Source of the DNA: Cellulophaga sp. 20_2_10
GTDB taxonomy: Bacteria; Bacteroidota; Bacteroidia; Flavobacteriales; Flavobacteriaceae
NCBI RefSeq assembly: GCF_023476645.1
Contig: NZ_JAMCOJ010000001.1
Coordinates: 372,001-436,000, forward strand
DNA length: 64,000 nt
Reading direction: 5' to 3'
In this document: positions 4,673 through 63,314 of the stretch, piece after piece
Layout of the letters: every line of letters starts with the position of its first letter
How positions within the stretch are numbered: the stretch's first letter is position 1
Notes under the pieces: generated by a model
The model's input: the letters and a program-made list of their open reading frames with translations, nothing else
Databases searched by the model: none
Told to the model about the DNA's origin: nothing
Translations under genes and position numbers: made by a program

Positions 4673-4769
4673 AGTGCTCCTCTAAATATTCAAGTGTAAA
4701 ATAGACAGGTACTAATTACTAATCTACCAAACACATTTTTTTATAGACCAAATAATAATTAGCATGTTT

Positions 4770-5498
4770 TTAAAGAGAGTTATTATTTGCAAATTCTAGA
4801 AAAGCAGATTTATACTGCTCTGAAACCGTTATACGTTGCTTATTAATAATAATCTGACTACGTTCTATAACATCTATATTTTTTAAAGAAACAATAAAGG
4901 ATCTATGAACACGCATAAAGTTGGTTTTTGGCAACTCCTCTTCCAAAGACTTTAAACTCATAAGTGTTAAAACAGGTTTAGGATTATCTTTTAACCATAT
5001 CTTTATATAATCCTTTAAACCTTCAAAATACAAAACGTCTGCAAGTTTAATTCGCAATTGTTTGTACTCAGATTTTACAAAAAGAAATTCTTTTTCTTCT
5101 GAAACTATAGGTTGGTTTTTTCCTTTCACTAACGAAAACCAAGTACTTGCTTTGTTTGCTGCTGCTAGAAATTCTGCATAATCAAAAGGTTTTAATAGAT
5201 AATCTAAAGCCTCTACATTAAAGCCTTCTAAAGCATACTCATCAAACGCAGTTGTAAATATTACACGTGTTTCTTTTGGTAGCATTTTAGAGAACTCTAT
5301 GCCTGTTAAATCTGGCATTTGTATGTCTAAAAATAATAAATCTACAGGTTCGTTTTTAATACACTCCAAAGCTTCAATTGCACTACTACACTTTTGCTTT
5401 AACTCTAGAAAAGGGGTTTTTTCAACATAGCTTTCTACTAAATTAAGCGCCATAGGTTCATCATCTACAATAACACAAGTAATTTTTATATTGCTCAT
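4770..5498 (-). CDS. LytTR family response regulator
   Basis: A 242-residue two-component response regulator. The receiver domain (about 4-120) has the acidic pair Asp12/Asp13, the phosphoacceptor Asp58 in LLFLDIQMPDLTG, the FTTA switch Thr and the LLKPF lysine. A LytTR DNA-binding domain follows (about 140-240: FLFVKSEYKQLRI..., FMRVHRSFIVSL). It starts 3 bp after its cognate kinase gene ends and is the last gene of the leftward efflux operon. It therefore probably adjusts export of whatever the MacAB/TolC-like pump carries, or controls other genes in response to it. Confidence 0.9.
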   Translation of the reverse strand: MSNIKITCVIVDDEPMALNLVESYVEKTPFLELKQKCSSAIEALECIKNEPVDLLFLDIQMPDLTGIEFSKMLPKETRVIFTTAFDEYALEGFNVEALDYLLKPFDYAEFLAAANKASTWFSLVKGKNQPIVSEEKEFLFVKSEYKQLRIKLADVLYFEGLKDYIKIWLKDNPKPVLTLMSLKSLEEELPKTNFMRVHRSFIVSLKNIDVIERSQIIINKQRITVSEQYKSAFLEFANNNSL

Positions 5499-5501
5499 AA
5501 T

Positions 5502-6542
5502 CTAGTTGGTTTCAATTTCTAAATGAGATACAAAATAGTTGTTCTCTAGAGTTGTTTTAAAGTTGTATTTCTTTGGATACAATAACTCTAAGCGCTTTTC
5601 TATATTAAGAAGCCCTATTCCAGAGCCACTTTTATCATCTATCTTTTTAGGAAAATCATTATTTTTTATAGTAAAATATACCGTCTTTTCTTTACAAATC
5701 ATTTCTATATTAATTATACTCTTTTTACTTGCAGATACACCGTGTTTAAAAGCATTTTCAATTAATGAAATAAATAATAATGGAGCAATTTTTATTCCTG
5801 TTTCTGTAGTAGGGAAACTATAATTTACTGTTGTTTTATCTGATACACGCAATTTCATTAATTCTATGTATTTTTTCATAAAATCTATTTCTTTAGATAA
5901 CGAAACCTGCTCTACATTAGTTTCATACAACATATAACGCATAAGTTTACTTAAACTATGTATAGCTGTTTTAGCCTCATCTGGCGATACATCTACCATA
6001 GCATAAATATTATTTAATGAGTTAAAAAAGAAATGTGGTTGCAATTGGTAATGCAAATGCTGTAGTTCTGATTTCAGTTTAAAATTAGCAGCCTCTTTAT
6101 GTTCTGCCTCTGTTTTAACCCAACGCTTGGTTGTTTTAACCGCAATAGAAAACAACAAAGGCGCCATATATGATACCATTTGAACATAAATAAACATTTT
6201 AAATCTTGGGGCTCCACCTTCTTTGGTATTGATACGATTTTTGGTTAGCTCTTCAAAAAAAGTTGCTTCTATAGTCTCTTTACAAAAAATGAAAAAAGAA
6301 ATTATAATTATGTTAATACCTACAAACCAAATTATTTTTTTTGGAAATAAAAATTTATCAATTAGCACAAAATAATTAAAGTAAAATAGAATTGCCGAAA
6401 ACACCAATGGAGTCCAAAAATGAATAACAACTCTATTTATTTCTTGTTCCTGTCCGTAAGATAATAAGTAAGGCATACTAAAGAGTACAATCCAAATCAG
6501 TATATGCGATAATAGGGTTATATTTTTGTTTTTTAACATCAT
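5502..6542 (-). CDS. LytS-type sensor histidine kinase
   Basis: A 346-residue membrane sensor kinase. I place the start at the Met at 6542 (or the next codon, 6539) because an upstream extension would overlap the permease gene that ends at 6548. Four membrane helices (about 13-28, 41-62, 70-88, 118-136) lead into a His_kinase domain with phosphoacceptor His170 in QLQPHFFFNSLNNIY and an ATPase region with the N-box LIENAFKHG and a GSGIGLLN glycine box. There is no PAS or periplasmic sensor domain, so sensing is likely through the membrane segment. Its partner is the LytTR regulator just downstream. Confidence 0.88.
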   Translation of the reverse strand: MMLKNKNITLLSHILIWIVLFSMPYLLSYGQEQEINRVVIHFWTPLVFSAILFYFNYFVLIDKFLFPKKIIWFVGINIIIISFFIFCKETIEATFFEELTKNRINTKEGGAPRFKMFIYVQMVSYMAPLLFSIAVKTTKRWVKTEAEHKEAANFKLKSELQHLHYQLQPHFFFNSLNNIYAMVDVSPDEAKTAIHSLSKLMRYMLYETNVEQVSLSKEIDFMKKYIELMKLRVSDKTTVNYSFPTTETGIKIAPLLFISLIENAFKHGVSASKKSIINIEMICKEKTVYFTIKNNDFPKKIDDKSGSGIGLLNIEKRLELLYPKKYNFKTTLENNYFVSHLEIETN

Positions 6543-6547
6543 ATATA

Positions 6548-7768
6548 TTATTCGTAACGTAATGCGGTTATTGGGTCTAAAGCCGATGCTTTTCGAGCAG
6601 GATACCATCCAAAAAAGATACCAGTTACTGCACAAACAGCAAAAGAAATCACAATAGAATACAAGGCTACGCTTGTAGGCCAATTTAAGAATTTTTCTAT
6701 AAACACGGTGGCACCAAGCCCTAATAAAACACCTAAGAGTCCACCGGTAATACTTATTAAAATGGCTTCAATTAAGAATTGCATTAAAATATCTGCACCT
6801 TTAGCACCAACTGCCATACGCAAACCAATTTCTTTTGTACGTTCTTTTACAGATACATACATGATATTCATAATACCAATACCTCCTATTAATAGAGATA
6901 TACTGGCTACTGCAACTAGTAAAATAGTAAGCATTTCACTAGTAGAACTAAATGTAGAAATTAACTCTTCCATAGATTTTACACTAAAATCATCTTCTTG
7001 ATTGTCTAATAACTCATGTTCGGTTCTTAATATATCTATCACTTGGGTAACCGCTTCGGTTGCTTCATCTTCACTTATTGATGATGCTATAATCTGATTT
7101 AAATGATCGATTGCCAAAATACGTTTCTGTACTGTTGTATAGGGTGCAATAACTACATCATCTTGATCTTGCCCAAAAGTATTTTCTCCTTTTTCTTCTA
7201 AAACACCAATTACTTTAAACGGAATATTATTAAAACGAATCATTTGCCCTACTGGCTCTTGACCATCTGGAAATACGTTTTCTACTACAGTCTGACCAAT
7301 TACAGCCACTTTAGAAGCAGACTTCACTTCTGCATCTGTAAACATACTTCCACTTTGTAAGCCTACTACTTTAATTTTAATATAATCTGGGTTTACACCG
7401 TAAATACTACTTGGCCAGTTATTAGAGCCATTAATAATTTGTCCACTTCCATTTACAAGAGGCGTTACATAGCTTAATAAATCAGCTTTTTCTTTAATAA
7501 CCTCGTAGTTTTCAAGTGTTAATGTTTGAACATCGCCTCCACTCCCTCTTGCAGGTCCTTTATCATCTGCTCCTGGTTTAATGGTAATCATATTAGAACC
7601 CATAGCAGAAATAGAAGTACGTATACTTTCTTTAGAACCTTCACCAATGGCTAACATAGCAATTACAGATGCTACACCAATGATGATACCTAACATGGTA
7701 AGCAATGTTCTTGTTTTATTAAGAATAATTGCCTTTGTTGCGATTTTAAATAAATTTAATAGTCTCAT
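6548..7768 (-). CDS. MacB-type ABC transporter permease
   Basis: A 406-residue permease of the type VII (mechanotransmission) ABC superfamily. Helix 1 (about 18-40) is followed by a long periplasmic MacB_PCD domain (about 45-270) and three C-terminal helices of the FtsX domain (about 280-400), including the GIGIMNIMYVSVKERTKEIGL motif after helix 2. Its ATPase is a separate gene upstream (7771-8514), unlike E. coli MacB where the two are fused. With the adaptor and TolC genes it forms a complete tripartite pump to the outside. Substrates of such pumps are peptides, siderophores or drugs; nothing here fixes which. Confidence 0.88.
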   Translation of the reverse strand: MRLLNLFKIATKAIILNKTRTLLTMLGIIIGVASVIAMLAIGEGSKESIRTSISAMGSNMITIKPGADDKGPARGSGGDVQTLTLENYEVIKEKADLLSYVTPLVNGSGQIINGSNNWPSSIYGVNPDYIKIKVVGLQSGSMFTDAEVKSASKVAVIGQTVVENVFPDGQEPVGQMIRFNNIPFKVIGVLEEKGENTFGQDQDDVVIAPYTTVQKRILAIDHLNQIIASSISEDEATEAVTQVIDILRTEHELLDNQEDDFSVKSMEELISTFSSTSEMLTILLVAVASISLLIGGIGIMNIMYVSVKERTKEIGLRMAVGAKGADILMQFLIEAILISITGGLLGVLLGLGATVFIEKFLNWPTSVALYSIVISFAVCAVTGIFFGWYPARKASALDPITALRYE

Positions 7769-11376: not shown

Positions 11377-12135
11377 CTATTTATTTTTTTTGGGATAAAG
11401 CTTAAACCAAAAATCTATTGTATTTTCTGTTGTTGCAGTTCTTTGCGCAGGTACACCACTGTTTCCTCTACCAGCGCCACCACGACCACCGCCTCTGCCA
11501 CCAGAAGGTCTACCTTGGCCACCACCTTGTCTACCGCCCATACTTACACTAGGTTGTTGTTGGTTTTGTGCTAACTTATTAGAAACAATACCTATAGATA
11601 GCTTAGTCAAATCTATGTTGTCCTCAGATATTTTTGAAGCCGGAATTTTTAAATGATATACTAAAATTGGTCCTTCATTCGCATCTTCATAATTATAGCT
11701 CATTGTAATTCCTAAATCATTTATATCTAAATTAAAATCTCTAGAAGAATCAAAATAGGTGTAATTTGCCTTTTTAGGAGCATTTTCAATCATTTTTGCT
11801 ATATCTGGACCTTTTTGCTCACTATTTTCATCTTTTTCTCTACGTTCTCCTCTTTCTGGTTTAGAACCTTTTTCTGATCGTCCTGCGTTTAAAGGATAGT
11901 GTATACTTACATTTTTCTTCTTCTTCCCTTTTACATCAAAATATATGGTATAGCCCCGGTGCAACATAGATTGCATCGTCTCTTTAAACTCTATACGTAA
12001 TGTTACATACACATCTTTACCATCAAAAATTGCTTTGTATTCTACATTATCTTCACTCCCTGTAAACGTTTCTTTATCCTGCGCTCTACTAATAGTGCAG
12101 ATTAAAAAATATAAGATTGCTAATTTTATTTTCAT
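11377..12135 (-). CDS. Secreted Gly-rich protein, copy 1
   Basis: A 252-residue exported protein of unknown function with signal peptide MKIKLAILYFLICTISRAQ. A beta-rich domain follows (about 20-180; it contains a strand pair around YTIYFDVKGKKKKNVSIHYPLNAG), interrupted by a charged Lys/Glu/Arg linker (about 85-110). A Gly/Arg/Gln-rich stretch (about 198-232) precedes a short conserved tail ending in IDFWFKLYPKK. It is a paralog of the gene at 16859. The two are nearly identical in the first ~130 codons and clearly diverged after that. This copy lacks the LytTR-type promoter of its sister; upstream lie a gene remnant and a duplicated tolC promoter segment that may now drive it. Confidence 0.65.
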   Translation of the reverse strand: MKIKLAILYFLICTISRAQDKETFTGSEDNVEYKAIFDGKDVYVTLRIEFKETMQSMLHRGYTIYFDVKGKKKKNVSIHYPLNAGRSEKGSKPERGERREKDENSEQKGPDIAKMIENAPKKANYTYFDSSRDFNLDINDLGITMSYNYEDANEGPILVYHLKIPASKISEDNIDLTKLSIGIVSNKLAQNQQQPSVSMGGRQGGGQGRPSGGRGGGRGGAGRGNSGVPAQRTATTENTIDFWFKLYPKKNK

Positions 12136-16858: not shown

Positions 16859-17626
16859 CTACCTCTTTTTAGGATATAACTTAAACCAAAAATCTATTTT
16901 TTCTACTTCTATTGTTGTCGCATCCCTTTGTGGAGGTCTTCCGCCACTACCTCTTCCTGCACCACCTTGGCCATTGCCGCCACCTGGAGGTCCGCCTTGT
17001 CCGCCACCGCGTTGTTTGCCTCCCATACTAAAACCAGACTGTTGTCCGCTTTTCTTTTGTTCTTGTTTGGCAGATACAATACCAATAGACAATTTAGACA
17101 GATCCATAGTATTTTCAGATATTTTAGAAGCTGGTATTTTTAGATGGTATTCTAAAATTGGACCTACTTCACTATTTTCATAGCTGTAATTCATTACAAT
17201 ACCCAAATTATTCATATCTAAATTAAAACCTTTAGAAGAATCAAAATAAGTGTAATTTGCCTTTTTAGGAGCATTTTTAATCATTTTTGCTATATCTGGA
17301 CCTTTTTGCTCACTATTTTCATCTTTTTCTCTACGTTCTCCTCTTTCTGGTTTAGATCCTTTTTCTGGTCGTCCTGCGTTTAAAGGATAGTGTATACTTA
17401 CATTTTTCTTCTTCTTCCCTTTTACATCAAAATATATGGTATAGCCCCGGTGCAACATAGATTGCATCGTCTCTTTAAACTCTGTACGTAATGTTACATA
17501 CACATCTTTACCATCAAAAATTGCTTTGTATTCTACATTATCTTCACTCCCTATAAACGTTTCTTTATCCTGCGCTCTACTAATAGTGCAGATTAAAAAA
17601 TATAAGATTGCTAATTTTATTTTCAT
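16859..17626 (-). CDS. Secreted Gly-rich protein, copy 2
   Basis: A 255-residue exported protein, paralog of 11377-12135, with the same signal peptide (MKIKLAILYFLICTISRAQ), the same beta-rich N-terminal domain and Lys/Glu linker, and a Gly/Gln/Pro-rich stretch (about 200-235) before the conserved IDFWFKLYPKK tail. By hand alignment the first ~400 bp, including 13 bp upstream of the ATG, differ from copy 1 at only about six positions, while the 3' third is much more diverged. This copy keeps a strong promoter with LytTR-type repeats (17643-17708), shared with CotH and the EF-hand operon. Its function is unknown; it may be a surface or matrix protein. Confidence 0.68.
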   Translation of the reverse strand: MKIKLAILYFLICTISRAQDKETFIGSEDNVEYKAIFDGKDVYVTLRTEFKETMQSMLHRGYTIYFDVKGKKKKNVSIHYPLNAGRPEKGSKPERGERREKDENSEQKGPDIAKMIKNAPKKANYTYFDSSKGFNLDMNNLGIVMNYSYENSEVGPILEYHLKIPASKISENTMDLSKLSIGIVSAKQEQKKSGQQSGFSMGGKQRGGGQGGPPGGGNGQGGAGRGSGGRPPQRDATTIEVEKIDFWFKLYPKKR

Positions 17627-17642: not shown

Positions 17643-17708
17643 CAAATCTATGTATAGAAACTATGCCAAAAAATAACTTTCTGTAAACGCTACTAGGTTT
17701 TCTGTGAA
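17643..17708 (-). promoter_or_regulatory. Promoter with LytTR-type direct repeats (Gly-rich copy 2)
   Basis: A perfect -7 element TAGATTTG (17643-17650, minus strand) lies 16 nt upstream of the ATG. TTCTGTAAA (17679-17687) and TTCTGTGAA (17700-17708), plus-strand reading, are 21 bp apart, two helical turns. The nearer repeat is exactly 28 nt from the -7 element. The same geometry occurs at 27921-27986 and 55089-55175. Confidence 0.72.
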
Positions 17709-26376: not shown

Positions 26377-26414
26377 CAAAAAAGCCAGCTATTTAAAATA
26401 ACTGGCTTAAAAAA
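26377..26414 (-). terminator. Terminator of the CotH gene
   Basis: AAGCCAG (26382-26388) pairs with CTGGCTT (26402-26408), with further ATTT/AAAT pairing inside and T-tracts on the minus strand. It lies just past the leftward CotH stop. Confidence 0.8.
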
Positions 26415-26430
26415 CGAACTCAACTAATTA

Positions 26431-27888
26431 CTAATCTAAATAATTTTGTACTGCTGTTGCACGTTCTGTAACGTGATTTTTTAATTCGTTTACTGCCGTA
26501 CTAAAATCTGTACTAGAGTTTAAAAATGTATGCCCCGCAATTTCTGTGGTTGCATACGGCTCTATTAAAGATGCATACGTAGTATATGTTGCTTGTAATG
26601 TACTTGCATTAAAGGCATTATCTATAACATCTTGCACATAAGAGTTGTATTGTAGTTTATATGTATCATCTGCATATAAATACCCAATTAAAGGCCATTC
26701 TTCTTCGTTTAAGTCAGAGAAATCTAAGGCTAAAGAACCTTGCATATTACCTTGTTGTAACGCCTCGTTATTATCCCAAGGAATCCATTGTAATTTATCG
26801 GTATCTGGATTGTTGTATAAAAAGTAATTGTGCGTCATTCTACCATAGGTATCCCAATTCTGAATTACCGTGTTTACGGCTACATATTTTAAAAACTGAT
26901 CTGTATCAAAAACCGATTCTAAATTTGTTCTCCAAGCTTCAGGATCTGTAGTTCTGTTGCTTGCATGCAAAGCATCAAAAACACGCAATATATCAGAATA
27001 ATCTGCTTCGTCTTCATTTGTTTTCTTTACAAATACCTCTTCAGAAAAAGAACCTTCTGCAAAACTAGCTCCATCGCCATCTGGTTTGTATAAATTTTCA
27101 TCATCATCAGAAAATTGTGTATCTATAACAGTATCATCAACTTCTTCTACCAAGGTATACAACCCAAAATATACAGGTCCGTCTCCGTGATCTACATATA
27201 CTGTATAAAATGCAGTATGCGAACTTACCAAGCCGGCAGCTGTAAATACATCGGCAGCAACTTTTTCTCTAAGCATAGATTTATCATTGTAGTTATTCTT
27301 TAAACTCAATTTTTTAAATCCGTAAAAGCGTTGGTTGTCTATTTGTGGGTATTCATCTTCAAACTCATCAAAATCAAGTTTAAAAGACAATTTTAAGTTT
27401 CCGCTAGACCAAGTAGATTGTAAGCTAGAGTTACCTTTAAAACGTATACCAACTCTATACCATTCTTTTCCTTCGTAAATTACATCTGCAGGAACAAAAA
27501 TAGGATCCTCGTCTACTGTTGTTAATCCGCCACCACCGGTTGGAGGAGCACCAGCTCCAGGACCACCTGTAGTGGTTCCAAATTCACCATAATTGGTTGT
27601 CATATCATCTAACATACTTTGCCAACGATCTTCGGTAACAACTAAGTCTAAACGATTTACTTCTGTATTAGGAAAAATTTCTTCAAAATTAGGATCTGCA
27701 CTTTTGCTATGTGTATTGTCTGTCCAATCTGCAGCCGTAAAATCTGAATCTTCGTACATTTCTACATACGATCCTGTTTCTTCCGTTTCTTCTGTATCAT
27801 CTGTAATAGCATCAGAATCTGAAGAACACGACAATAAAAACATAAAATTTAGTAGTGCTAAAAGCAATATCGAATTATTTTTTTTCAT
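26431..27888 (-). CDS. CotH kinase family lipoprotein
   Basis: A 485-residue lipoprotein (lipobox FLLSC) with an acidic Asp/Glu/Thr linker and a Gly/Pro-rich segment (about 100-118) ahead of and inside a CotH domain (about 75-400). Typical CotH motifs are RFKGNSSLQ, KKLSLKNNYNDKSMLREK, NWDTYGRMTHNYFLY and IPWDNNEAL. In Bacillus and some pathogens CotH is an atypical protein kinase that phosphorylates coat or secreted proteins; here it would face the periplasm or cell surface. Its promoter (27921-27986) carries the same LytTR-type repeats as the EF-hand/YHYH operon and Gly-rich copy 2, so they are probably co-regulated. No VTC or DUF4956 partner is adjacent. Confidence 0.85.
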   Translation of the reverse strand: MKKNNSILLLALLNFMFLLSCSSDSDAITDDTEETEETGSYVEMYEDSDFTAADWTDNTHSKSADPNFEEIFPNTEVNRLDLVVTEDRWQSMLDDMTTNYGEFGTTTGGPGAGAPPTGGGGLTTVDEDPIFVPADVIYEGKEWYRVGIRFKGNSSLQSTWSSGNLKLSFKLDFDEFEDEYPQIDNQRFYGFKKLSLKNNYNDKSMLREKVAADVFTAAGLVSSHTAFYTVYVDHGDGPVYFGLYTLVEEVDDTVIDTQFSDDDENLYKPDGDGASFAEGSFSEEVFVKKTNEDEADYSDILRVFDALHASNRTTDPEAWRTNLESVFDTDQFLKYVAVNTVIQNWDTYGRMTHNYFLYNNPDTDKLQWIPWDNNEALQQGNMQGSLALDFSDLNEEEWPLIGYLYADDTYKLQYNSYVQDVIDNAFNASTLQATYTTYASLIEPYATTEIAGHTFLNSSTDFSTAVNELKNHVTERATAVQNYLD

Positions 27889-27920: not shown

Positions 27921-27986
27921 CAAAGATGCAGAGAAGAAGCATAGTATTTAGATACTATCTGTGAACAAGGTTTGGTTTTCTGTGAA
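27921..27986 (-). promoter_or_regulatory. Promoter with LytTR-type direct repeats (CotH)
   Basis: The -7 element is CATCTTTG (27921-27928, minus strand; one mismatch to TAnnTTTG). ATCTGTGAA (27957-27965) and TTCTGTGAA (27978-27986), plus-strand reading, are 21 bp apart. The nearer repeat is 28 nt from the -7 element, identical to the spacing at 17643-17708. Confidence 0.72.
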
Positions 27987-50280: not shown

Positions 50281-50376
50281 CTTAATTATCAAGAATCTCA
50301 AAAAGAGATAGCAACCTGCAGTAACGAGCAAGGTGCTAAAGCGATAAGCCAATACTTTGGAACAAACGTTAATTGT
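50281..50376 (+). ncRNA. SAM-I-clan riboswitch (short variant)
   Basis: The leader has the core of SAM-I/IV-type S-adenosylmethionine riboswitches: ATTATCAAGA at the 5' side, a short P2 stem ATCTC/GAGAT, GCAACCTGC, then GCAAGGTGCTAA, where CCTGC and GCAAGG form P3 and GGTGC/GCAAC-type joints follow. A short P1 can form between AATTA (50284-50288) and TAATT (50370-50374). P2 is much shorter than in classical SAM-I and leaves no room for the kink-turn/pseudoknot loop, so it resembles the SAM-I/IV variant group. It precedes an NhaC-family carrier that would then be a methionine transporter. No terminator hairpin lies before the ATG, so control may be translational. Confidence 0.65.
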
Positions 50377-50430: not shown

Positions 50431-51747
50431 ATGACAACTGTTAAAAATAGCACTCCAAGTTTTACTGCATTACTACCACTGTTTGTATTTGTATTTACAT
50501 TTTTAGGCGTAGGTATTTATCAAAACGATTTTTATGCTCTACCAGCTCCTATTGCTGTTATAGCGGGTATAATAGTTGCCTTTTTACTATTTAAACAAAG
50601 TATAAACGCTAAAATAGAAACACTTTTAGCTGGTTGTGGTGATAGTAAAATACTAACAATGTGTCTTATATATTTGCTAGCTGGTGCATTTGCTGCCATT
50701 ACTAAAGAAACTGGTAGTGTAGATGCTATTGTAAATTTAGGCTTAGATTTTATAGCCATACAATATATATACTTTGGTGTGTTTATAATTGCTGCATTTT
50801 TATCTATATCTACAGGTACTTCTGTTGGTGCAATTGTAGCATTAACGCCTATTGTAATTGGTTTTTCAGATAAAGGCGGAGTATCATTAGCTATACTCTG
50901 TGGAGCCTTGTTAGGTGGCTCTATGTTTGGCGATAATCTATCGGTAATATCTGATACCACAATAGCTGCAACGCAATCTTTAGGTGTTAAAATGAGTGAC
51001 AAGTTTAAGCAAAACATAAAAATTGCGCTACCTGCTGCTCTATTTACTATAGTTATTCTAATATTTAAAGGTGCTGCTTTAGAATCTAACGATTTAGAAA
51101 ACATTACATATAATTATTCCTTACTTAAAATTGCGCCTTATATATTAGTAATTGGGCTATCTGTAATTGGCGTAAATGTATTTGTCACCTTACTACTAGG
51201 TGTGCTAATAGCAGCTGTAATTGGTATCTTTTATGGCGATTTTACACTTATTGAGTCCACCAAAATTGCATATACTGGGTTTACCAGCATGACAGAGATT
51301 TTTCTACTCTCCTTACTATCGGGTGGTTTAGCAGCACTAGTAGCCAAAAATGGCGGAATTGACTATATTTTAAATAAGATTAAAACCCTTATAAAAAGTA
51401 AAAAGTCTGCACAATTTGGTATAGCAACCTTAGTTAGCACGGTAAATATGGCTATAGCAAACAATACGGTTTCTATTATTATTTCTGGTTCTATTGCCAA
51501 AACTATTAATGACGAATACAAACTAGACAATAAAAGTACAGCATCTATACTAGATATATTTGCCTGTATAACTCAAGGTTTACTGCCTTATGGAGCACAG
51601 GTTTTAATGATTTTAAGTTTTTCTGAAGGAAACTTAACATATACCGACCTAATAAGTAACACTTGGTATTTGTTATTACTCTTAGTTTACACCATTCTTT
51701 ACATAACCTTTACCCCATTTAAATTGAAGAAAACTAGCATAAATTAA
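50431..51747 (+). CDS. NhaC-family carrier, probable methionine transporter (MetT-like)
   Basis: A 438-residue inner-membrane carrier with about eleven helices and NhaC-family motifs (STGTSVGAIVALTPI, GGSMFGDNLSVISDTTIAATQSLG, NMAIANNTVSI, CITQGLLPYGAQ). Annotation pipelines would call it a sodium:proton antiporter. The SAM-type riboswitch in its leader makes methionine uptake more likely, as proposed for MetT, which belongs to the same superfamily. Followed 46 bp later by an EamA gene. Confidence 0.82.
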   Translation: MTTVKNSTPSFTALLPLFVFVFTFLGVGIYQNDFYALPAPIAVIAGIIVAFLLFKQSINAKIETLLAGCGDSKILTMCLIYLLAGAFAAITKETGSVDAIVNLGLDFIAIQYIYFGVFIIAAFLSISTGTSVGAIVALTPIVIGFSDKGGVSLAILCGALLGGSMFGDNLSVISDTTIAATQSLGVKMSDKFKQNIKIALPAALFTIVILIFKGAALESNDLENITYNYSLLKIAPYILVIGLSVIGVNVFVTLLLGVLIAAVIGIFYGDFTLIESTKIAYTGFTSMTEIFLLSLLSGGLAALVAKNGGIDYILNKIKTLIKSKKSAQFGIATLVSTVNMAIANNTVSIIISGSIAKTINDEYKLDNKSTASILDIFACITQGLLPYGAQVLMILSFSEGNLTYTDLISNTWYLLLLLVYTILYITFTPFKLKKTSIN

Positions 51748-52722: not shown

Positions 52723-53388
52723 TTAAAACTCCTCTTCTAAAGTTTTAATGTCCTTAATTAATTGCTGTATAGCCGTTTTATTTAACCCGTTATAAATACC
52801 TCTTATGTGTTTATCTTTATCAATAAGCACAAAGTTTTCAGTATGTAAAAAGTCATCATCAGTTTTTAATTCGCCCAAGTCCTCTTCTATAAAATAAGAG
52901 TCTCTACCAAGACTATAAATTGTACTTCTGTCGCCTGTAGCCAAATGCCATTTATTTGTAATAACTCCTTTAAAATCCGCATATTCTTTTAACACAGAAG
53001 CAGAATCTGTCTCTGGAGTTACAGAATGAGATAATAAAAGCACATTATCATCATCTTTAAAAGCATCTTGAATAACAGCCATATTTGATGTCATTTTAGG
53101 ACAAATTCCTGAGCAAGTAGTAAAGAAAAAATCGGCTACATAAATCTTATTATTAAACTCTTTTTCTGTAATAGTTTTACCTTCCTGATTTTGTAAACTA
53201 AAATCTGGTATAGTGTGTAAGTTTTCAACTTCCGCGCTATTAGCAGCTAACCATTTTGGAGTAAAACTAGATTCTTGATAGTACGGTAAGGCACTAATCT
53301 TGTTTGGAGTAGCATTTTGTTTACAGCTAAAAACTGTAGCGACAACTATAAAAACAGCTACTACCCTACTTAACTTGTACAACTTCAT
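52723..53388 (-). CDS. SCO1/SenC family lipoprotein
   Basis: A 221-residue lipoprotein (start Met at 53388; lipobox VATVFSC). The thioredoxin-like SCO domain has the copper/redox motif FTTCSGICPKM and a downstream conserved His in LLSHSVTPETD. SCO proteins deliver copper to cytochrome oxidase or keep thiols reduced. It overlaps the end of the MORN-repeat lipoprotein gene by 23 bp and is the last gene of the EF-hand/YHYH operon. Confidence 0.85.
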   Translation of the reverse strand: MKLYKLSRVVAVFIVVATVFSCKQNATPNKISALPYYQESSFTPKWLAANSAEVENLHTIPDFSLQNQEGKTITEKEFNNKIYVADFFFTTCSGICPKMTSNMAVIQDAFKDDDNVLLLSHSVTPETDSASVLKEYADFKGVITNKWHLATGDRSTIYSLGRDSYFIEEDLGELKTDDDFLHTENFVLIDKDKHIRGIYNGLNKTAIQQLIKDIKTLEEEF

Positions 53389-53983
53389 TCTCCAATTGAA
53401 AACATAAATTTGCTCTTTTAAGTCCAAAAATACGTCCATCTTTTGCCTCATAATTGTTATAAACTTTTCCATTTTTTCTCCAAGATTTTTGAATTCCATT
53501 TTCTTTGCCATTTACAATATTCATTTCTTTAAACTTAGCTCCGGTATTGTACCATTGTTTTTGTAATCCGTTTACAATACCCTTTGTAAAAATAGATTTA
53601 GATCTAAGGTTACCGTTAGCCCACCAAGACTTAGCAACTCCTTCTTTTTTACCGTTTTTATAATATGCTTCATAACTAAGATCACCAGAACTAAACCACT
53701 TTTGATAATCACCGTGCTTTTTACCATTTTGGTAACTAATACTTTCTGACGTACCTCCGTGTTTGTAAAAAGTTACAGCTAAACCAGTAAAAAGCTCGTT
53801 GTTATAATATACAAGTCCTAGGTTATTTTTTACTTCAAGTTTTTTCTTAGATACTAAGTTAACAGGCGTACAACTAGATATAGAGGCTACCAGTAAAATT
53901 AATACTAGCTTATAAAATAGTAGCTGGCGTACCTTGGTAATCTCCTGGAAATAAGATATAAAACTGATTAAGGTATAATTCAT
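53366..53983 (-). CDS. MORN-repeat lipoprotein (YwqK-like)
   Basis: A lipoprotein of about 205 residues with four or five MORN/YwqK repeats (about 60-175: NGKKHGDYQKWFSSGDLSYE, NGKKEGVAKSWWANGNLRSK, NGLQKQWYNTGAKFKE, NGIQKSWRKNGKV). I use the Met at 53983, which gives a long but workable lipoprotein signal ending in ASISSC. The frame extends further upstream and overlaps the YHYH gene end by over 70 bp in any case; an ATT start at about 53941 would give an ideal signal. The YwqK 'antitoxin' label in databases does not fit here, since no toxin is adjacent. Confidence 0.72.
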   Translation of the reverse strand: MNYTLISFISYFQEITKVRQLLFYKLVLILLVASISSCTPVNLVSKKKLEVKNNLGLVYYNNELFTGLAVTFYKHGGTSESISYQNGKKHGDYQKWFSSGDLSYEAYYKNGKKEGVAKSWWANGNLRSKSIFTKGIVNGLQKQWYNTGAKFKEMNIVNGKENGIQKSWRKNGKVYNNYEAKDGRIFGLKRANLCFQLENEVVQVK

Positions 53984-54746
53984 TTTGTATGTGATAATGA
54001 TATTCTTGTTCTGTTGTATGCTGTGTAGTACTTGTGTGTCCGCCAGATGCATCTAAATCTTCTGGATAAGCACTGGTAGAATTGCATTTTCTTCCATAAA
54101 GAAAAAAACCATCTGCCATCACTCCAATTAAATTTTCGTCATCATTAGACCACGCTTTTGTCTCTAAATGATAATGGTAACTCTGCGGTCCTGTATGCGC
54201 TGCTGTATAATCTAAAGATCCTACAGCATCATCTAAAGGCACATTTGGCCCTTCTTCATCATTATAGATCATTGCACCACTAATAGCAACACCAATTGCT
54301 CCTAGGCCCGTAGAGCTACTCGCAGATGCCTTAATTGGTGTTTGCGGAACAGTTAAAGAATATGAACCATTAAAATCGTCTATATTTCCTGGTGCCATTT
54401 GCTCATAACTTGTAACTGTAGGCTCTACAAATAAAGGATGGTTTACATCTGCTGCTTCTGTAGTTAATGTGTTACCCATAGGATCTACTGTAGAACGCTC
54501 TGTTGTATTAGACCAATAAGGAGAAGAATGATTTGGCATACCATTAGTTTCTATTTCTACATCTGTCCCAGATAACATAATTGTTACATTATCAGCATCA
54601 AACTCACCAAAAGCTGCGTGTAATTCTCCTGTTGTAGCTACTGTATCATCTGTTGAGTTACTATCACTGCTACAAGCAATAAATGCAACTGCAAATAAAG
54701 CTAATGTGCTTAGTACTCCTATTCTTAATTTATTAGATTTTTTCAT
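53910..54746 (-). CDS. YHYH-domain lipoprotein
   Basis: A 278-residue lipoprotein (lipobox AFIAC, Cys25). The conserved domain (about 55-270) contains the name-giving motif twice, in QSYHYHLETK (190-193) and EYHYHIQN (249-252), plus ADGFFLYGRK. The His/Tyr pairs suggest metal binding, but the function of the family is unknown. It lies between an EF-hand gene and MORN/SCO genes in one operon under a LytTR-type promoter. Confidence 0.82.
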   Translation of the reverse strand: MKKSNKLRIGVLSTLALFAVAFIACSSDSNSTDDTVATTGELHAAFGEFDADNVTIMLSGTDVEIETNGMPNHSSPYWSNTTERSTVDPMGNTLTTEAADVNHPLFVEPTVTSYEQMAPGNIDDFNGSYSLTVPQTPIKASASSSTGLGAIGVAISGAMIYNDEEGPNVPLDDAVGSLDYTAAHTGPQSYHYHLETKAWSNDDENLIGVMADGFFLYGRKCNSTSAYPEDLDASGGHTSTTQHTTEQEYHYHIQNELYLNQFYILFPGDYQGTPATIL

Positions 54747-54764: not shown

Positions 54765-55055
54765 TTAGTTTTTAGTTGGTTTCTTTGACTTTCTCTTCGG
54801 CATTTTCTCTATTTCTTTTTTAGATAAAAATCCGTCTTCATTAGCGTCAATCTTTTTAAAATCATCTTTTAAAGGCCCTTTTACTTCTTTTTTAGATAGT
54901 TTACCATCTTTATTGGCATCCATTTGTTTAAAAAGCTCTTCTATTGTTGGTCTTTTACCTTGCTCCCCTTTTGGTGGTTGTGCTTTTACTCCTAGTACAC
55001 CAAATGCAATCATAACTGTTGCTAAAACCCCTTTTTTTACTATTGTAGAAATCAT
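54765..55055 (-). CDS. Secreted EF-hand protein
   Basis: A 96-residue exported protein with signal peptide MISTIVKKGVLATVMIAFGVLGVKA and two canonical calcium loops, DANKDGKLSKKE and DANEDGFLSKKE, ending in a basic Lys/Pro tail. The start at 55055 is chosen over 55076 because the -7 element (55089-55096) puts the transcript start near 55082 and because it yields a normal signal peptide. It is the first gene of the EF-hand/YHYH/MORN/SCO operon. The protein is probably calcium-binding in the periplasm. Confidence 0.82.
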   Translation of the reverse strand: MISTIVKKGVLATVMIAFGVLGVKAQPPKGEQGKRPTIEELFKQMDANKDGKLSKKEVKGPLKDDFKKIDANEDGFLSKKEIEKMPKRKSKKPTKN

Positions 55056-55088: not shown

Positions 55089-55175
55089 CAAAGTTGAACA
55101 TAAGTTTAATGCGGATGTACTGTTTTAAGCGAACGCCAAGAAACTTTCTGTGAATCTGGTTTTATATTCTGTAAA
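55089..55175 (-). promoter_or_regulatory. Promoter with LytTR-type repeats (EF-hand/YHYH operon)
   Basis: The -7 element is CAACTTTG (55089-55096, minus strand; one mismatch). TTCTGTGAA (55146-55154) and TTCTGTAAA (55167-55175) are 21 bp apart, and a weaker third repeat TTAAGCGAA (55125-55133) sits another 21 bp closer to the promoter, exactly 28 nt from the -7 element as in the other two promoters. The array also lies upstream of the LytS/LytTR genes that start at 55247 on the other strand. Confidence 0.72.
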
Positions 55176-55246
55176 ACCAATTATAAAGAAGCTAAATGAG
55201 CTTGTTTTAAGCTATCTATTGATTTTTATTTTCATTTATTTGCAGT

Positions 55247-56278
55247 ATGAATGCAACAATGAGATTTATATTTCAGTCGGTTTTATGGTTAATATTATGG
55301 TTTGTGCTGTGGTCCCAACAAGCCTATGATACAATGTTTTTAGAACAAAATGGAATTTCTTTTCTGGGACAAATTATAGTTATTGCTTTATTAATTTATT
55401 ATACAGCGCCTAAATTTTTATTCACAAAAAAACACCTTCAGTTTGTTATAATATCTAGTATTGCACTTGCAATTTTTATTTTAATACCCACATTAGTATT
55501 ACCACCAAACCAAGAATTACCTATGCCCAGAATGCCAGAAATGGGTAATTTAAACAGACCTTTACCAATGCCACCATCTAGGCACCTAACACAAATATTA
55601 TTACTTTTAATAGCCTATATTTTAGCAACTGTAGTTGAGTTTATTGTTTATACTAAAAAGAAAGAAGAAGAAATAATTAGAAGTAAAAATGAAAATTTAG
55701 AAACAGAATTAAAGCTTTTAAAATCACAGATAAATCCGCATTTTTTATTTAATGCCCTAAACAACATCTATGCTTTATCTGCAATAGACACAACTAAAAC
55801 ACAAGAAAGTATTAGCTACTTGTCTACAATGTTACGCTATGTTTTATACGAGTGCGAAAGACCATTTGTACTACTCTCTAAAGAAGTAGAATACATAGAA
55901 AATTATATTAAATTATTCGCCTTAAAAAGCAGTAAAAAATACCCTATAGAAACTAACTTTAATATAGAAGATAGCACTCTTAAAATAGCCCCAATGTTAC
56001 TTATACCTTTTGTAGAAAATGCTTTTAAACACAGTAATGTAGAGCAAATTAGAGGTACTTATATAAACATAAACTTAACATCTAAAGGCAATACAATTAC
56101 ATTTAATGTGGAGAATACTATTGCACAAGATAATATCATAAAAGATGCTGTTGGTGGTATTGGTTTAGAAAATGTAAAAAAGAGACTAGAAATTCTATAT
56201 CCTAAAAAGCATAACTTGTCTATTTCTAAAAACGATGGTATTTTTAAAGTTGAATTAAAGCTAGAGAATTATGTATAA
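55247..56278 (+). CDS. LytS-type sensor histidine kinase with Met-rich loop
   Basis: A 343-residue sensor kinase with four membrane helices (about 8-24, 38-54, 66-84, 115-135), a coiled linker (KKKEEEIIRSKNENLETELK), phosphoacceptor His165 in QINPHFLFNALNNIY and the ATPase motifs VENAFKH and GGIGLENVKKRL. The predicted periplasmic loop between helices 3 and 4 is Met/Pro-rich (Met93, Met96, Met99, Met108, His113), including MxxMxxM, a motif often used to bind Cu(I). It overlaps its LytTR partner by 8 bp. A TTTATTTG just before the ATG may be the -7 element, in which case the Met at 55259 would be the start. Confidence 0.85.
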   Translation: MNATMRFIFQSVLWLILWFVLWSQQAYDTMFLEQNGISFLGQIIVIALLIYYTAPKFLFTKKHLQFVIISSIALAIFILIPTLVLPPNQELPMPRMPEMGNLNRPLPMPPSRHLTQILLLLIAYILATVVEFIVYTKKKEEEIIRSKNENLETELKLLKSQINPHFLFNALNNIYALSAIDTTKTQESISYLSTMLRYVLYECERPFVLLSKEVEYIENYIKLFALKSSKKYPIETNFNIEDSTLKIAPMLLIPFVENAFKHSNVEQIRGTYININLTSKGNTITFNVENTIAQDNIIKDAVGGIGLENVKKRLEILYPKKHNLSISKNDGIFKVELKLENYV

Positions 56279-56951
56279 GTGTATTGTTATTGATGATGAA
56301 GAACTGGCAAGAGCTTTACTTACTAGCTATATTGATAAGTTAGATTTTTTAGAACAAATTGGCTCGTTTGAAAACCCAATAGAAGCTATTTCTTTAGTTA
56401 AAAGTAAAGCAGTAGATGTTATTTTTTTGGACATACAAATGCCTAATCTAAAAGGAACCGACTTTGCAAAAATTGTACCTGCATCAACAAAAATAATATT
56501 TACAACAGCCTATTCAGATTATGCATTAGAAGGTTATGAACTTAACGCTTTAGATTATTTATTAAAACCAATAACGTTTCAACGCTTTTTAAAAGCTGTA
56601 GATAAGTTAGAGACTAAAACCGTTATAGAAGATAAGCAGGTTACAGCTACTACCATTACAATAAAATCTGGGTACGATTTACACAAACTTCAAGTACAAG
56701 ATATTACACATATAGAGAGCGATAGTGAGTATGTTGTTTTTTATACTGATTCAAAAAAAATTATGAGTCACCAAACATTAAAGTCGTTAGAAAAAACTCT
56801 AGATGCTACTATGTTTATGCGTGTACATAGATCTTTTATAATTAACAAAACTAAAGTTACAAGCCTAAAAGGCAGAGACTTATTGCTATCTAACTTAAGT
56901 ATCCCTGTAAGTGACAGTTATTATGACAAAGTGAAAAAAGAGTTGTTTTAG
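56271..56951 (+). CDS. LytTR family response regulator
   Basis: A 226-residue response regulator with receiver domain (acidic pair in VIDDEEL, phosphoacceptor Asp in VIFLDIQMPNLKGTDF, FTTA, LLKPI) and a LytTR DNA-binding domain (about 125-225, FMRVHRSFIINKTKVTSL). It is co-transcribed with its kinase and is the best candidate to bind the 21-bp-spaced repeats upstream of the divergent EF-hand operon, CotH and Gly-rich copy 2. Its end overlaps the convergent GNAT gene by 4 bp. Confidence 0.9.
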   Translation: MYKCIVIDDEELARALLTSYIDKLDFLEQIGSFENPIEAISLVKSKAVDVIFLDIQMPNLKGTDFAKIVPASTKIIFTTAYSDYALEGYELNALDYLLKPITFQRFLKAVDKLETKTVIEDKQVTATTITIKSGYDLHKLQVQDITHIESDSEYVVFYTDSKKIMSHQTLKSLEKTLDATMFMRVHRSFIINKTKVTSLKGRDLLLSNLSIPVSDSYYDKVKKELF

Positions 56952-61424: not shown

Positions 61425-61694
61425 AAAAAAAGTGATTTATTTTAATAATAAAATATAGGTTAGTTATAGTAAATGTATATAATTTATCAACTTTTAAACT
61501 AAAATGAAACCCTTAAATATGTTAAATCCACGAAAACCTTTTAGTAAATAGATATCAAAAAATGCTAAAACAATTCGTTAACCATAGAGTTAATTATATC
61601 TTGAACAAAAGCAAACTCTTAAAACTATCTTAAATCAATCATCATTTTAACAAGAAGTAGTATTTTCATAGCAAATAACTAACAAACTCAACTA

Positions 61695-63314
61695 ATGAAA
61701 TTAAAACTACAGTATTTGTTGCTGGGATGTATTTGTTTTGCATCTACTTCTTCCCTATTTGCGCAACAAAATTACCAAACAACAACACAATTAACATCAA
61801 ACTTAAAAAGCCTTGTTTCTAAACACAAAAGCAATGCTAAACTTACATCTTTAACCAAAACTTTAGGCGGTAAAGACATTTGGGTACTAACACTGTCTAA
61901 TGGTAATCCAGAAAATAACCCTGCAATGGTAGTTGTTGGTGGTGTAGAAGGCAATTATTTAGTAGGTACAGAATTGGCCATTAAGTTTGCAGAAAATGTT
62001 TTAACCAACAACAAAAGTGTTTTAGACAATACAACGTTCTATATTTTTCCTAATATGAGTCCAGATGCTACTGAACAATATTTTAGCAAATTAAAATATG
62101 AGCGTCAAGGAAATGCTAAAAAGACAGATGATGATAGAGACGGACAACTAAATGAAGATCCTTTTGAAGATTTAAACAAAGACGGACAAATTACACTTAT
62201 GCGTATTGAAGATCCTACTGGAGACTATATGATGCTTGAAGAAGACAACCGCATTATGATTAAAGCAGATACTAATAAAGGCGAAAAAGGAACTTATAAA
62301 GTATTTACAGAAGGTATAGATAACGATAAAGATGGCGAGTATAATGAAGACGGCGAAGGTGGTGTACACTTTAACAAAAACTTCACTTACAATTCTCCTT
62401 ACTTTAAGCCAGGCGCTGGCGAACACGCTGTTTCTGAATTAGAAAATAGAGCTATGCTAGATTTTTTATATGAAAAATGGAATGTATACAGTATTTTTTC
62501 ATTTGGACCAGCAAATAATTTATCAGAACCTCTTAAGTACAGTGCATCTAATGCTAAAAAACGTGTTGTTACAAGTATTTTAGAGAATGACGCTAAACTA
62601 AACAAACAATTATCAGAAAAGTATAATGAACTTATACCCAACAAAAACACTCCTGCTTCTATTACAAATGGAGGTGGTTTTTTTGAGTGGTCTTACTTTC
62701 ATTTTGGAAGATTAGCTTTAAGTACGCCTGCGTGGTGGGCACCAGAGTTTAAAGGAGATTCTATTAACAAAGCTCCAAAAAACAGAGATGCCAACTTTTT
62801 AAAATGGGCAGAGCAAGAAGGTATAACAAGTGCATTTGTAGATTGGAAAGAAGTAAAGCACCCTGATTTTCCTAATAGCAAAGTAGAAGTTGGTGGTATA
62901 GCTCCATTTGTACAAAACAACCCTCCGTATAAAATGATAGATAGTATTGCGCAAAAGCACAATACATTTATTTTGGATGTTGTTAAAATGCAACCATCTT
63001 TACTTTTTACAAACCTAAAACAAGAAAAATTAGGTTCTGGACTTACCCGTGTAACAGTAGATTTACACAACCAAGGTTTATTACCAACGCAAACAGAAAT
63101 GGGCGCAAAATCTAGATGGCTACGTAAAATAAACATTGCTTTAGATTTAGGTAACGGTCAAAAAATAATATCTGGCAAACAACGTCAGCTTATTACTAAA
63201 ATAGACGAAGATGGTACTAATCATTTTACGTGGTTAATTAGTGGAAAAGGGAAATTGGTTTTAAAAGCTGGTGCACCGCAAACAGGAACACAACAAATAA
63301 CCATAAACCTTTAA
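61695..63314 (+). CDS. M14-family carboxypeptidase homolog lacking zinc ligands
   Basis: A 539-residue secreted protein (signal MKLKLQYLLLGCICFASTSSLFAQQ) with the M14 fold in its first ~320 residues. The zinc motif HxxE is replaced by Glu85 and Tyr88 (GGVEGNYLVGTE), and the third ligand His region reads YSIFSFGPAN instead of a His-containing turn, so it is probably inactive. Acidic DxDxDG insertions (about 142-165 and 205-220) look like calcium loops. The C-terminal ~130 residues are a beta-rich domain. It is followed 10 bp later by an active-looking M14 gene. Confidence 0.8.
   Translation: MKLKLQYLLLGCICFASTSSLFAQQNYQTTTQLTSNLKSLVSKHKSNAKLTSLTKTLGGKDIWVLTLSNGNPENNPAMVVVGGVEGNYLVGTELAIKFAENVLTNNKSVLDNTTFYIFPNMSPDATEQYFSKLKYERQGNAKKTDDDRDGQLNEDPFEDLNKDGQITLMRIEDPTGDYMMLEEDNRIMIKADTNKGEKGTYKVFTEGIDNDKDGEYNEDGEGGVHFNKNFTYNSPYFKPGAGEHAVSELENRAMLDFLYEKWNVYSIFSFGPANNLSEPLKYSASNAKKRVVTSILENDAKLNKQLSEKYNELIPNKNTPASITNGGGFFEWSYFHFGRLALSTPAWWAPEFKGDSINKAPKNRDANFLKWAEQEGITSAFVDWKEVKHPDFPNSKVEVGGIAPFVQNNPPYKMIDSIAQKHNTFILDVVKMQPSLLFTNLKQEKLGSGLTRVTVDLHNQGLLPTQTEMGAKSRWLRKINIALDLGNGQKIISGKQRQLITKIDEDGTNHFTWLISGKGKLVLKAGAPQTGTQQITINL

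Follow-up and report, generated by a model that had tools for sequence, protein, structure and literature searches.

A predicted LytTR regulon with conserved 21-bp repeat operators in Cellulophaga and other Flavobacteriaceae

LytTR proteins are known to use direct repeats that lie close in front of the promoter and are spaced by about two turns of the helix. Among described systems, BtsS/BtsR (YehU/YehT) of E. coli has the same combination of a LytS/LytTR pair and 21-bp direct repeats; the YehT (BtsR) probe for yjiY is given as ACCGCTTA-N13-ACCACTCA, a 21-bp step (PMC4847170). RgaS/RgaR-SpoZ of Clostridioides difficile is described as a VirR-like two-component system with the same 21-bp spacing of G, in which repeats with a critical G at -51 and -72 drive protein genes and the small RNA (sRNA) SpoZ; the same account names RNAIII and VR-RNA as parallels (PMC10602386). 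VirS/VirR-VR-RNA of Clostridium perfringens likewise combines a regulon of small size with a regulatory RNA and with boxes that come in pairs at a fixed distance upstream of the promoter (PMC2838878). On the RNA side, the FopS family of Bacteroides thetaiotaomicron is reported as multicopy sRNAs with intrinsic terminators, one of them 3ʹUTR-derived (PMC11697453). For F. johnsoniae coevolved with Burkholderia, mutations in the LytTR-type FJOH_RS09515 or the histidine kinase FJOH_RS09520 are recorded in 5/5 lines (PMC10197871).

Here we analyse three repeat arrays, S1 to S3, and an adjacent LytS/LytTR pair in a 64,000-nt stretch of the Cellulophaga sp. 20_2_10 genome (the window). By our own comparison, a C[A/G]CT (CRCT) core is common to this motif and to that of BtsR as published. 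BtsR is also the nearest NCBIfam model for the LytTR protein, but the protein scores 137.6 bits against the equivalog NF008677, below its cut-off of 246. Unlike the E. coli system, the arrays here have two or three repeats and a Bacteroidota-type -7 box, and their predicted targets are envelope or secreted proteins, with candidate sRNA genes in relatives, rather than a pyruvate transporter. RgaS/RgaR has one sRNA and was tested by experiment (PMC10602386), whereas here a family of sibling candidates in relatives is predicted. VirS/VirR differs in its box spacing, toxin targets and Gram-positive host (PMC2838878), and the FopS RNAs are shorter (about 65-70 nt) and, as far as they are described in PMC11697453, have no known regulator. 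Each element has precedent; what is new is the combination, in Flavobacteriaceae, of a rigid, divergent three-repeat array with clustered sibling RNAs. Our literature searches, for which subscription papers were mostly out of reach, found no paper defining a flavobacterial LytTR operator. For the operator described here we provide a sequence and a spacing, together with a regulon that is small across the whole genome and a set of loci for tests across the family.

Repeat arrays and neighbouring genes

All three arrays are on the minus strand. S1 (17679-17708) has two repeats, at 17700-17708 and 17679-17687, before a gene for a Gly-rich protein; S2 (27957-27986) has two, at 27978-27986 and 27957-27965, before a CotH gene; and S3 (55125-55175) has three, at 55167-55175, 55146-55154 and 55125-55133, before an EF-hand/YHYH/MORN/SCO operon and divergent from lytS. 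The preliminary description of this DNA had reported three leftward promoters with direct repeats exactly 21 bp apart and a constant 28-nt gap to the -7 element. Indeed, every step that we measured is 21 bp, and in S1, S2 and S3 alike the distance from the start of the last copy to TTTG is 41 nt, so that 28 nt separate the 9-mer from the 8-nt -7 box. The boxes themselves, on the same strand, are TAGATTTG for S1 (17643-17650), CATCTTTG for the CotH promoter (27921-27928) and CAACTTTG for the promoter of the EF-hand operon (55089-55096), 154 nt from the lytS start. The TAnnTTTG form proposed earlier fits the box of S1 and neither of the other two.

Read in order, the copies are TTCACAGAA / TTTACAGAA in S1, TTCACAGAA / TTCACAGAT in S2 and TTTACAGAA / TTCACAGAA / TTCGCTTAA in S3, and the exact 9-mer TTCTGTGAA occurs once per promoter, at 17700, 27978 and 55146. 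A matrix built from 90 repeat copies, taken from 31 ortholog loci outside the genus, gives the consensus TTC[A/G]CT[G/T]AA. Because of this consensus the copy at 55125-55133 (TTCGCTTAA), which had been called degenerate, is the best-scoring copy of all, with a matrix score of 17.9.

A single 9-mer is not enriched in the window, where 15 matches with at most one mismatch compare with 21.8 expected; only the pairing of repeats and its position are informative. Scored by the matrix, the 21-bp pairs of the window reach 29.0 (S3), 26.7 (S1), 23.4 (S2) and 19.8 (outer pair of S3), and the next best 21-bp pair scores 11.1. At the other spacings from 15 to 28 bp, the highest scores of single pairs are 22.5 (18 bp), then 18.1 and 16.3 (24 bp), so that one chance pair, at 18 bp, comes within the range of the real ones. 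One hundred dinucleotide shuffles yielded 4 pairs in total at or above 19.75 at 21 bp, with a maximum of 21.5.

The LytS/LytTR pair beside S3 is encoded on the plus strand. The gene lytS (55247-56278) encodes a sensor histidine kinase (Pfam His_kinase, 5.5e-23) with a Pro/Gly-rich loop; its membrane helices and loop were read by eye, and its product was aligned across 45 sequences. The lytTR gene (56271-56951) encodes a response regulator with a receiver (Response_reg, 3.5e-21) and a LytTR DNA-binding domain (5.2e-20). We considered copper or Met sensing by the LytS loop and dropped it, as no Met or His is kept across the 45 sequences when these are inspected by eye.

The S3 operon, on the minus strand, begins with a gene for an EF-hand protein that has a signal-peptide-like start, judged by eye (54765-55055), followed by genes for a YHYH protein (53910-54746), a MORN_2 repeat protein (53366-54052) and a SCO1/SenC-type protein (52723-53511). 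The MORN_2 frame is a mechanical ORF that overlaps the YHYH gene, and hence its true start is probably internal. The predicted YHYH fold has a pLDDT of 64.5 and no PDB match at E<=0.001, so that structure assigns it no function; the predicted fold of P0001, with a pLDDT of 33, is unusable. Also on the minus strand are the gene behind S2, for a CotH-kinase-family protein (26431-27888), and that behind S1, for the Gly-rich protein (16859-17626), which again has a signal-peptide-like start by eye and to which Pfam and NCBIfam assign no family. A duplicate of the Gly-rich gene at 11377-12135 encodes an 83% identical protein and has a 5ʹ leader in common with the S1 gene, and it is without a repeat array: the duplication left the operator behind. 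As a side observation, the EF-hand protein has a weak NCBIfam similarity to lanmodulin, below the cut-off (28.4 of 135 bits), which is probably no more than the shared EF-hand signal.

Conservation of the predicted operator and co-occurrence with the regulator

Orthologs of the LytTR gene are present in 14 of the 18 genus genomes (at least 61% identity to the 56271-56951 protein) and in 21 of 299 genomes drawn from Flavobacteriaceae (E<=1e-60); further loci, from named genomes, came from the best 80 loci of one collection scan. The resulting ortholog set has 45 loci above 55% identity, including the window and with presumed duplicates removed, and 63 paralog loci below 50% serve as controls. 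Four loci (L139, L147, L154 and L156) were dropped because they duplicate, or presumably nearly duplicate, L109, L122, L134 and L131, respectively; L136 (43% identity) was excluded from the set, and the locus of G093 was not fetched at length. The 45 loci are not independent, since several come from close relatives (e.g. four Maribacter).

Across the ortholog set, pairs scoring at least 15 number 99 at a 21-bp spacing and 0-7 at each other spacing from 12 to 31 bp; at the paralog loci they number 13 at 21 bp and 0-11 at the others. The matrix, like the profile described below, is not fully blind, because the copies were picked by the window and genus consensus and in 21-bp register. A motif-free count of recurring 9-base stretches, with one mismatch allowed, is blind: in 44 regions upstream of lytS it peaks at 105 for 21 bp, followed by 42 at 24 bp, with a median of 8. 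With the plain consensus, a 21-bp pair in which both copies match at 8 or more of 9 positions lies upstream of lytS in 32/44 loci.

The position of the array is conserved as well. In 44/45 ortholog loci, 31 of which supplied the matrix, and in 13 of the 14 genus loci that were not used for training, the 500 nt upstream of lytS contain a pair scoring at least 15. An array in 21-bp register with a TTTG reaches the score threshold in 37/45 loci (L122 is doubtful) and falls below it in 8, and a copy scoring at least 3 stands exactly 41 nt before TTTG in 31/45. Counted from the lytS start codon, the divergent TTTG is 154 nt away in 31/45 loci and 153 nt away in 3 others. In the 31 loci chosen for the 154-nt geometry, the repeats are 71, 92 and 113 nt away from lytS; all 31 have TTNATTTG directly before the lytS start. 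In the window, a predicted -7 box for lytS, TTTATTTG, is at 55235-55242 on the plus strand and ends 4 nt before the ATG. Since the TAnnTTTG box of F. psychrophilum is placed at -12 to -5 (PMC9723704), the lytS transcript should start at the ATG. We infer a leaderless lytS mRNA, whose promoter would share the rigid array with the divergent operon. S3 may therefore regulate lytS too, as the array lies a fixed distance behind this predicted promoter.

To search whole genomes, we used a 78-nt promoter profile, R1, made from 30 promoters outside the genus; L120, with a spacing one base shorter, was left out for that reason. The E-values obtained with R1 and R2 are approximate. In the 4.17-Mb genome that contains the window, R1 matches at E<=0.01 are S2 (1.1e-6), S3 (2.5e-5, where the match spans no more than the last repeat and the promoter) and S1 (6.3e-5), and nothing else; the next match, at 0.03, covers no repeat. 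The element is thus not randomly placed. The two other genomic pairs with at most one mismatch (C12:264991 and C58:1157) are inside reading frames and have no R1 match at E<=0.01.

The profile also follows the regulator across the family. At E<=1e-5, an R1 match is found in 18 of the 21 family genomes with a LytTR ortholog (and is absent from 3), compared with 1 of the 278 without one. When the 13 training genomes are removed, the contrast is 5/8 versus 1/278 (Fisher p=2e-8). In the one exception, G050, the array adjoins a LytS/LytTR pair, and the regulator of this pair shares 48% identity with the ortholog-set member that it matches best. When the threshold is relaxed to E<=0.01, 68/299 genomes have an R1 match, mostly a weak one, and we read these weak matches as chance. 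Within the genus, the best E-values are 6e-12 to 1.7e-3 (weakest in G002) in the 14 genomes with an ortholog, and 8e-4 (a partial match, in G007), 0.053, 0.059 and 0.19 in the four without, so that the two ranges overlap slightly. Outside this comparison, the Rikenella microfusus record L214, with a 40.6%-identical LytTR, has two pairs at 21-bp spacing, each with its TTTG 41 nt away, located +1229 and -2630 relative to its LytTR gene; because of these pairs, the operator type may reach beyond Flavobacteriaceae.

Other genomes also keep the element in front of CotH, YHYH and EF-hand genes. The ORFs that a simple script called less than about 10 kb from the ortholog, on the strand opposite lytS, include an EF-hand gene in 38/45 loci, YHYH in 38/45, SCO in 35/45 and a MORN-type gene in 25/45. 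Ten distal R1 matches (E<=1e-5), in other genomes, lie outside the fetched LytTR loci, and none was used for training. Three of them precede EF-hand genes (one being the entire EF-hand/YHYH/MORN/SCO operon), four CotH, one YHYH and one a PAP2/haloperoxidase-like gene; the tenth stands before the G050 regulator pair. Neither the PAP2 match nor the G050 match has a TTTG at 41 nt. A Cthe_2159 carbohydrate-binding gene lies behind a weaker match (4.3e-5), and a partial match at L296 (2.2e-4) has no array by the matrix. At 12 CotH loci in the genus, an upstream repeat pair reaches the threshold in 10; those without it are in G013, where the regulator is absent, and in G010. The common theme of these targets is that they are secreted or envelope proteins.

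Proposed regulation from the arrays

What protein reads these arrays? The preliminary description had proposed a LytTR regulon, and the two tests that we ran, of placement in the genome and of conservation upstream of target genes, both came out in favour of this reading. A LytTR regulon with conserved operators is well supported, and the arrays are very probably the landing site of the neighbouring, sensor-controlled regulator. We propose, with a probability of roughly 0.86, that S1, S2 and S3 are operators of the LytTR protein encoded at 56271-56951, which is partnered with LytS and activates three transcription units. LytS would phosphorylate LytTR on an envelope signal. LytTR subunits would next occupy the rows of two or three 9-bp repeats, one repeat for every two helical turns and all on one face of the DNA; the centre of the last repeat would be near -45 relative to the predicted start. 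From these positions they would activate the EF-hand/YHYH/MORN/SCO, CotH and Gly-rich protein units. In relatives, such promoters also stand before candidate sRNA genes. The analysis itself establishes the repeats, their spacing and distance from the promoter, the conservation of these features, the co-occurrence with the LytTR gene and the target families in common; phosphorylation, binding, start sites, activation instead of repression, signal, autoregulation and production of the RNAs are what we infer. Such a regulon would tie the YHYH, CotH, secreted EF-hand and DUF6702-like families, which are of unclear role, into one response.

The direction of control cannot be told from sequence, and the regulator might instead repress from the arrays until a signal relieves the repression. 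We consider this unlikely, since the position of the last repeat, before the core promoter and not over the start site, is that of an activator, and VirR and RgaR are described as activating from comparable sites (PMC2838878, PMC10602386). It is also possible for a paralog to bind, because 31 places in the genome match the regulator at E<=0.001, although some may be receiver domains only; each genome of the genus has 24-36 such matches. If the arrays were mainly bound by another LytTR protein (e.g. that encoded at 4770-5498, 38% identical), the adjacent pair would be a passenger. The abundance of related regulators fits this idea, as do the pairs at some paralog loci, e.g. L214 with its TTTG at 41 nt, and the G050 array that adjoins a 48%-identical regulator. 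It is nonetheless distinctly improbable: the array accompanies the ortholog of this very pair at 44/45 loci (31 of them training loci) and at 13/14 non-training loci, no R1 match in the four genomes of the genus that lack the ortholog is better than 8e-4, and the paralog-locus count at 21 bp (13) is little above that at other spacings (0-11).

We give very little weight to the possibility that a protein from outside the LytTR family reads the repeats, with LytS/LytTR merely co-regulated: direct repeats at 21 bp just upstream of a promoter fit LytTR sites, their core resembles the BtsR site, and they are linked to and co-occur with LytTR. The idea that the repeats arose by chance in AT-rich DNA draws on the lack of enrichment of the 9-mer alone and on the 18-bp chance pair that scores 22.5 in the window. 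It is refuted by conservation, and the spacing peak, the whole-genome profile result and the shuffles also speak against it, which makes its probability negligible.

Candidate small RNA genes

Some R1 matches in the genus have no gene downstream. In 13 units, TTTG at 41 nt is followed, after about 80-140 nt, by a strong hairpin and T-run, and a scan of ten segments for ORFs of at least 15 codons found only one that starts inside the RNA. An RNA model built from these 13 units has 20 matches in the genus at E<=0.01 (7 in G003, 6 in G016, 2 in G006 and 1 each in G001, G005, G008, G013 and G017). A LytTR array precedes 17 of the 20: sixteen have an R1 match at E<=5 directly upstream, and the array of the seventeenth (G016:94695), with a degenerate second repeat, was seen by eye. 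Among matches outside training, 4/7 follow an array. There are thus 17 candidate sRNA genes behind LytTR arrays, short and terminator-ended, in six Cellulophaga-group genomes, and these predicted units have their own promoter, an intrinsic terminator, no conserved ORF and several copies. Array promoters before candidates are at L277 (G003) 5279-7549, L278 (G016) 4696-5557, L293 1004, L294 4900, L295 2554, L347 (G001) 2748 and L351 (G016) 2696. The arrays provide a promoter-defined route to sRNAs in Flavobacteriaceae.

Seven of the candidates form one cluster in G003, in two runs (two and five); a tandem-repeat origin of this cluster was rejected, as Tandem Repeats Finder was negative. In G006, where a CotH gene was not found, the array and RNA persist between the same neighbours as in G005. 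Many of the candidate RNAs have in common a core like GTTGAGTTAGTT. Their consensus fold is weak (-0.17 kcal/mol, with a covariation term of +0.21); 5/6 terminator pairs show a double change, and each pair is broken in 1-3 of the 13 sequences. Four RNAs folded singly give -27 to -36 kcal/mol, with the terminator strongest. Rfam returned two sub-gathering matches only (E 0.18 and 0.82) at four loci with candidate RNAs. Outside the genus, the RNA model has 20 weak matches, in 19/299 genomes at E<=0.01, the best at 3.1e-5. Its best E-value in the window genome is 0.208, and hence we claim no such sRNA gene there. However that may be, the end of the CotH gene and its 3ʹUTR (26378-26434, minus strand) resemble the 3ʹ half of the candidates in relatives, with a core, TTAGTTGAGTTCGTT, and an intrinsic terminator, and are without a promoter of their own.

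We give about even odds to a post-transcriptional arm, in which LytTR would drive sibling sRNAs that base-pair with mRNAs and the window species would keep an RNA derived from the CotH 3ʹUTR. If true, Bacteroidota would have an sRNA cascade like Qrr/FopS that is controlled by a LytTR two-component system. Within the window, which was the scope of our complementarity search, the CotH 3ʹUTR has 12 bp of complementarity to the start-codon region (61685-61696) of the M14 peptidase gene at 61695. G004, whose protein is 95% identical, retains this site, and G012 and G014 do not; as the site comes from an after-the-fact scan, the peptidase is only a lead as an RNA target. Elsewhere in the window, a SAM-I/IV riboswitch (Rfam RF01725, 56.4 bits) lies at 50281-50376, upstream of the gene at 50431.
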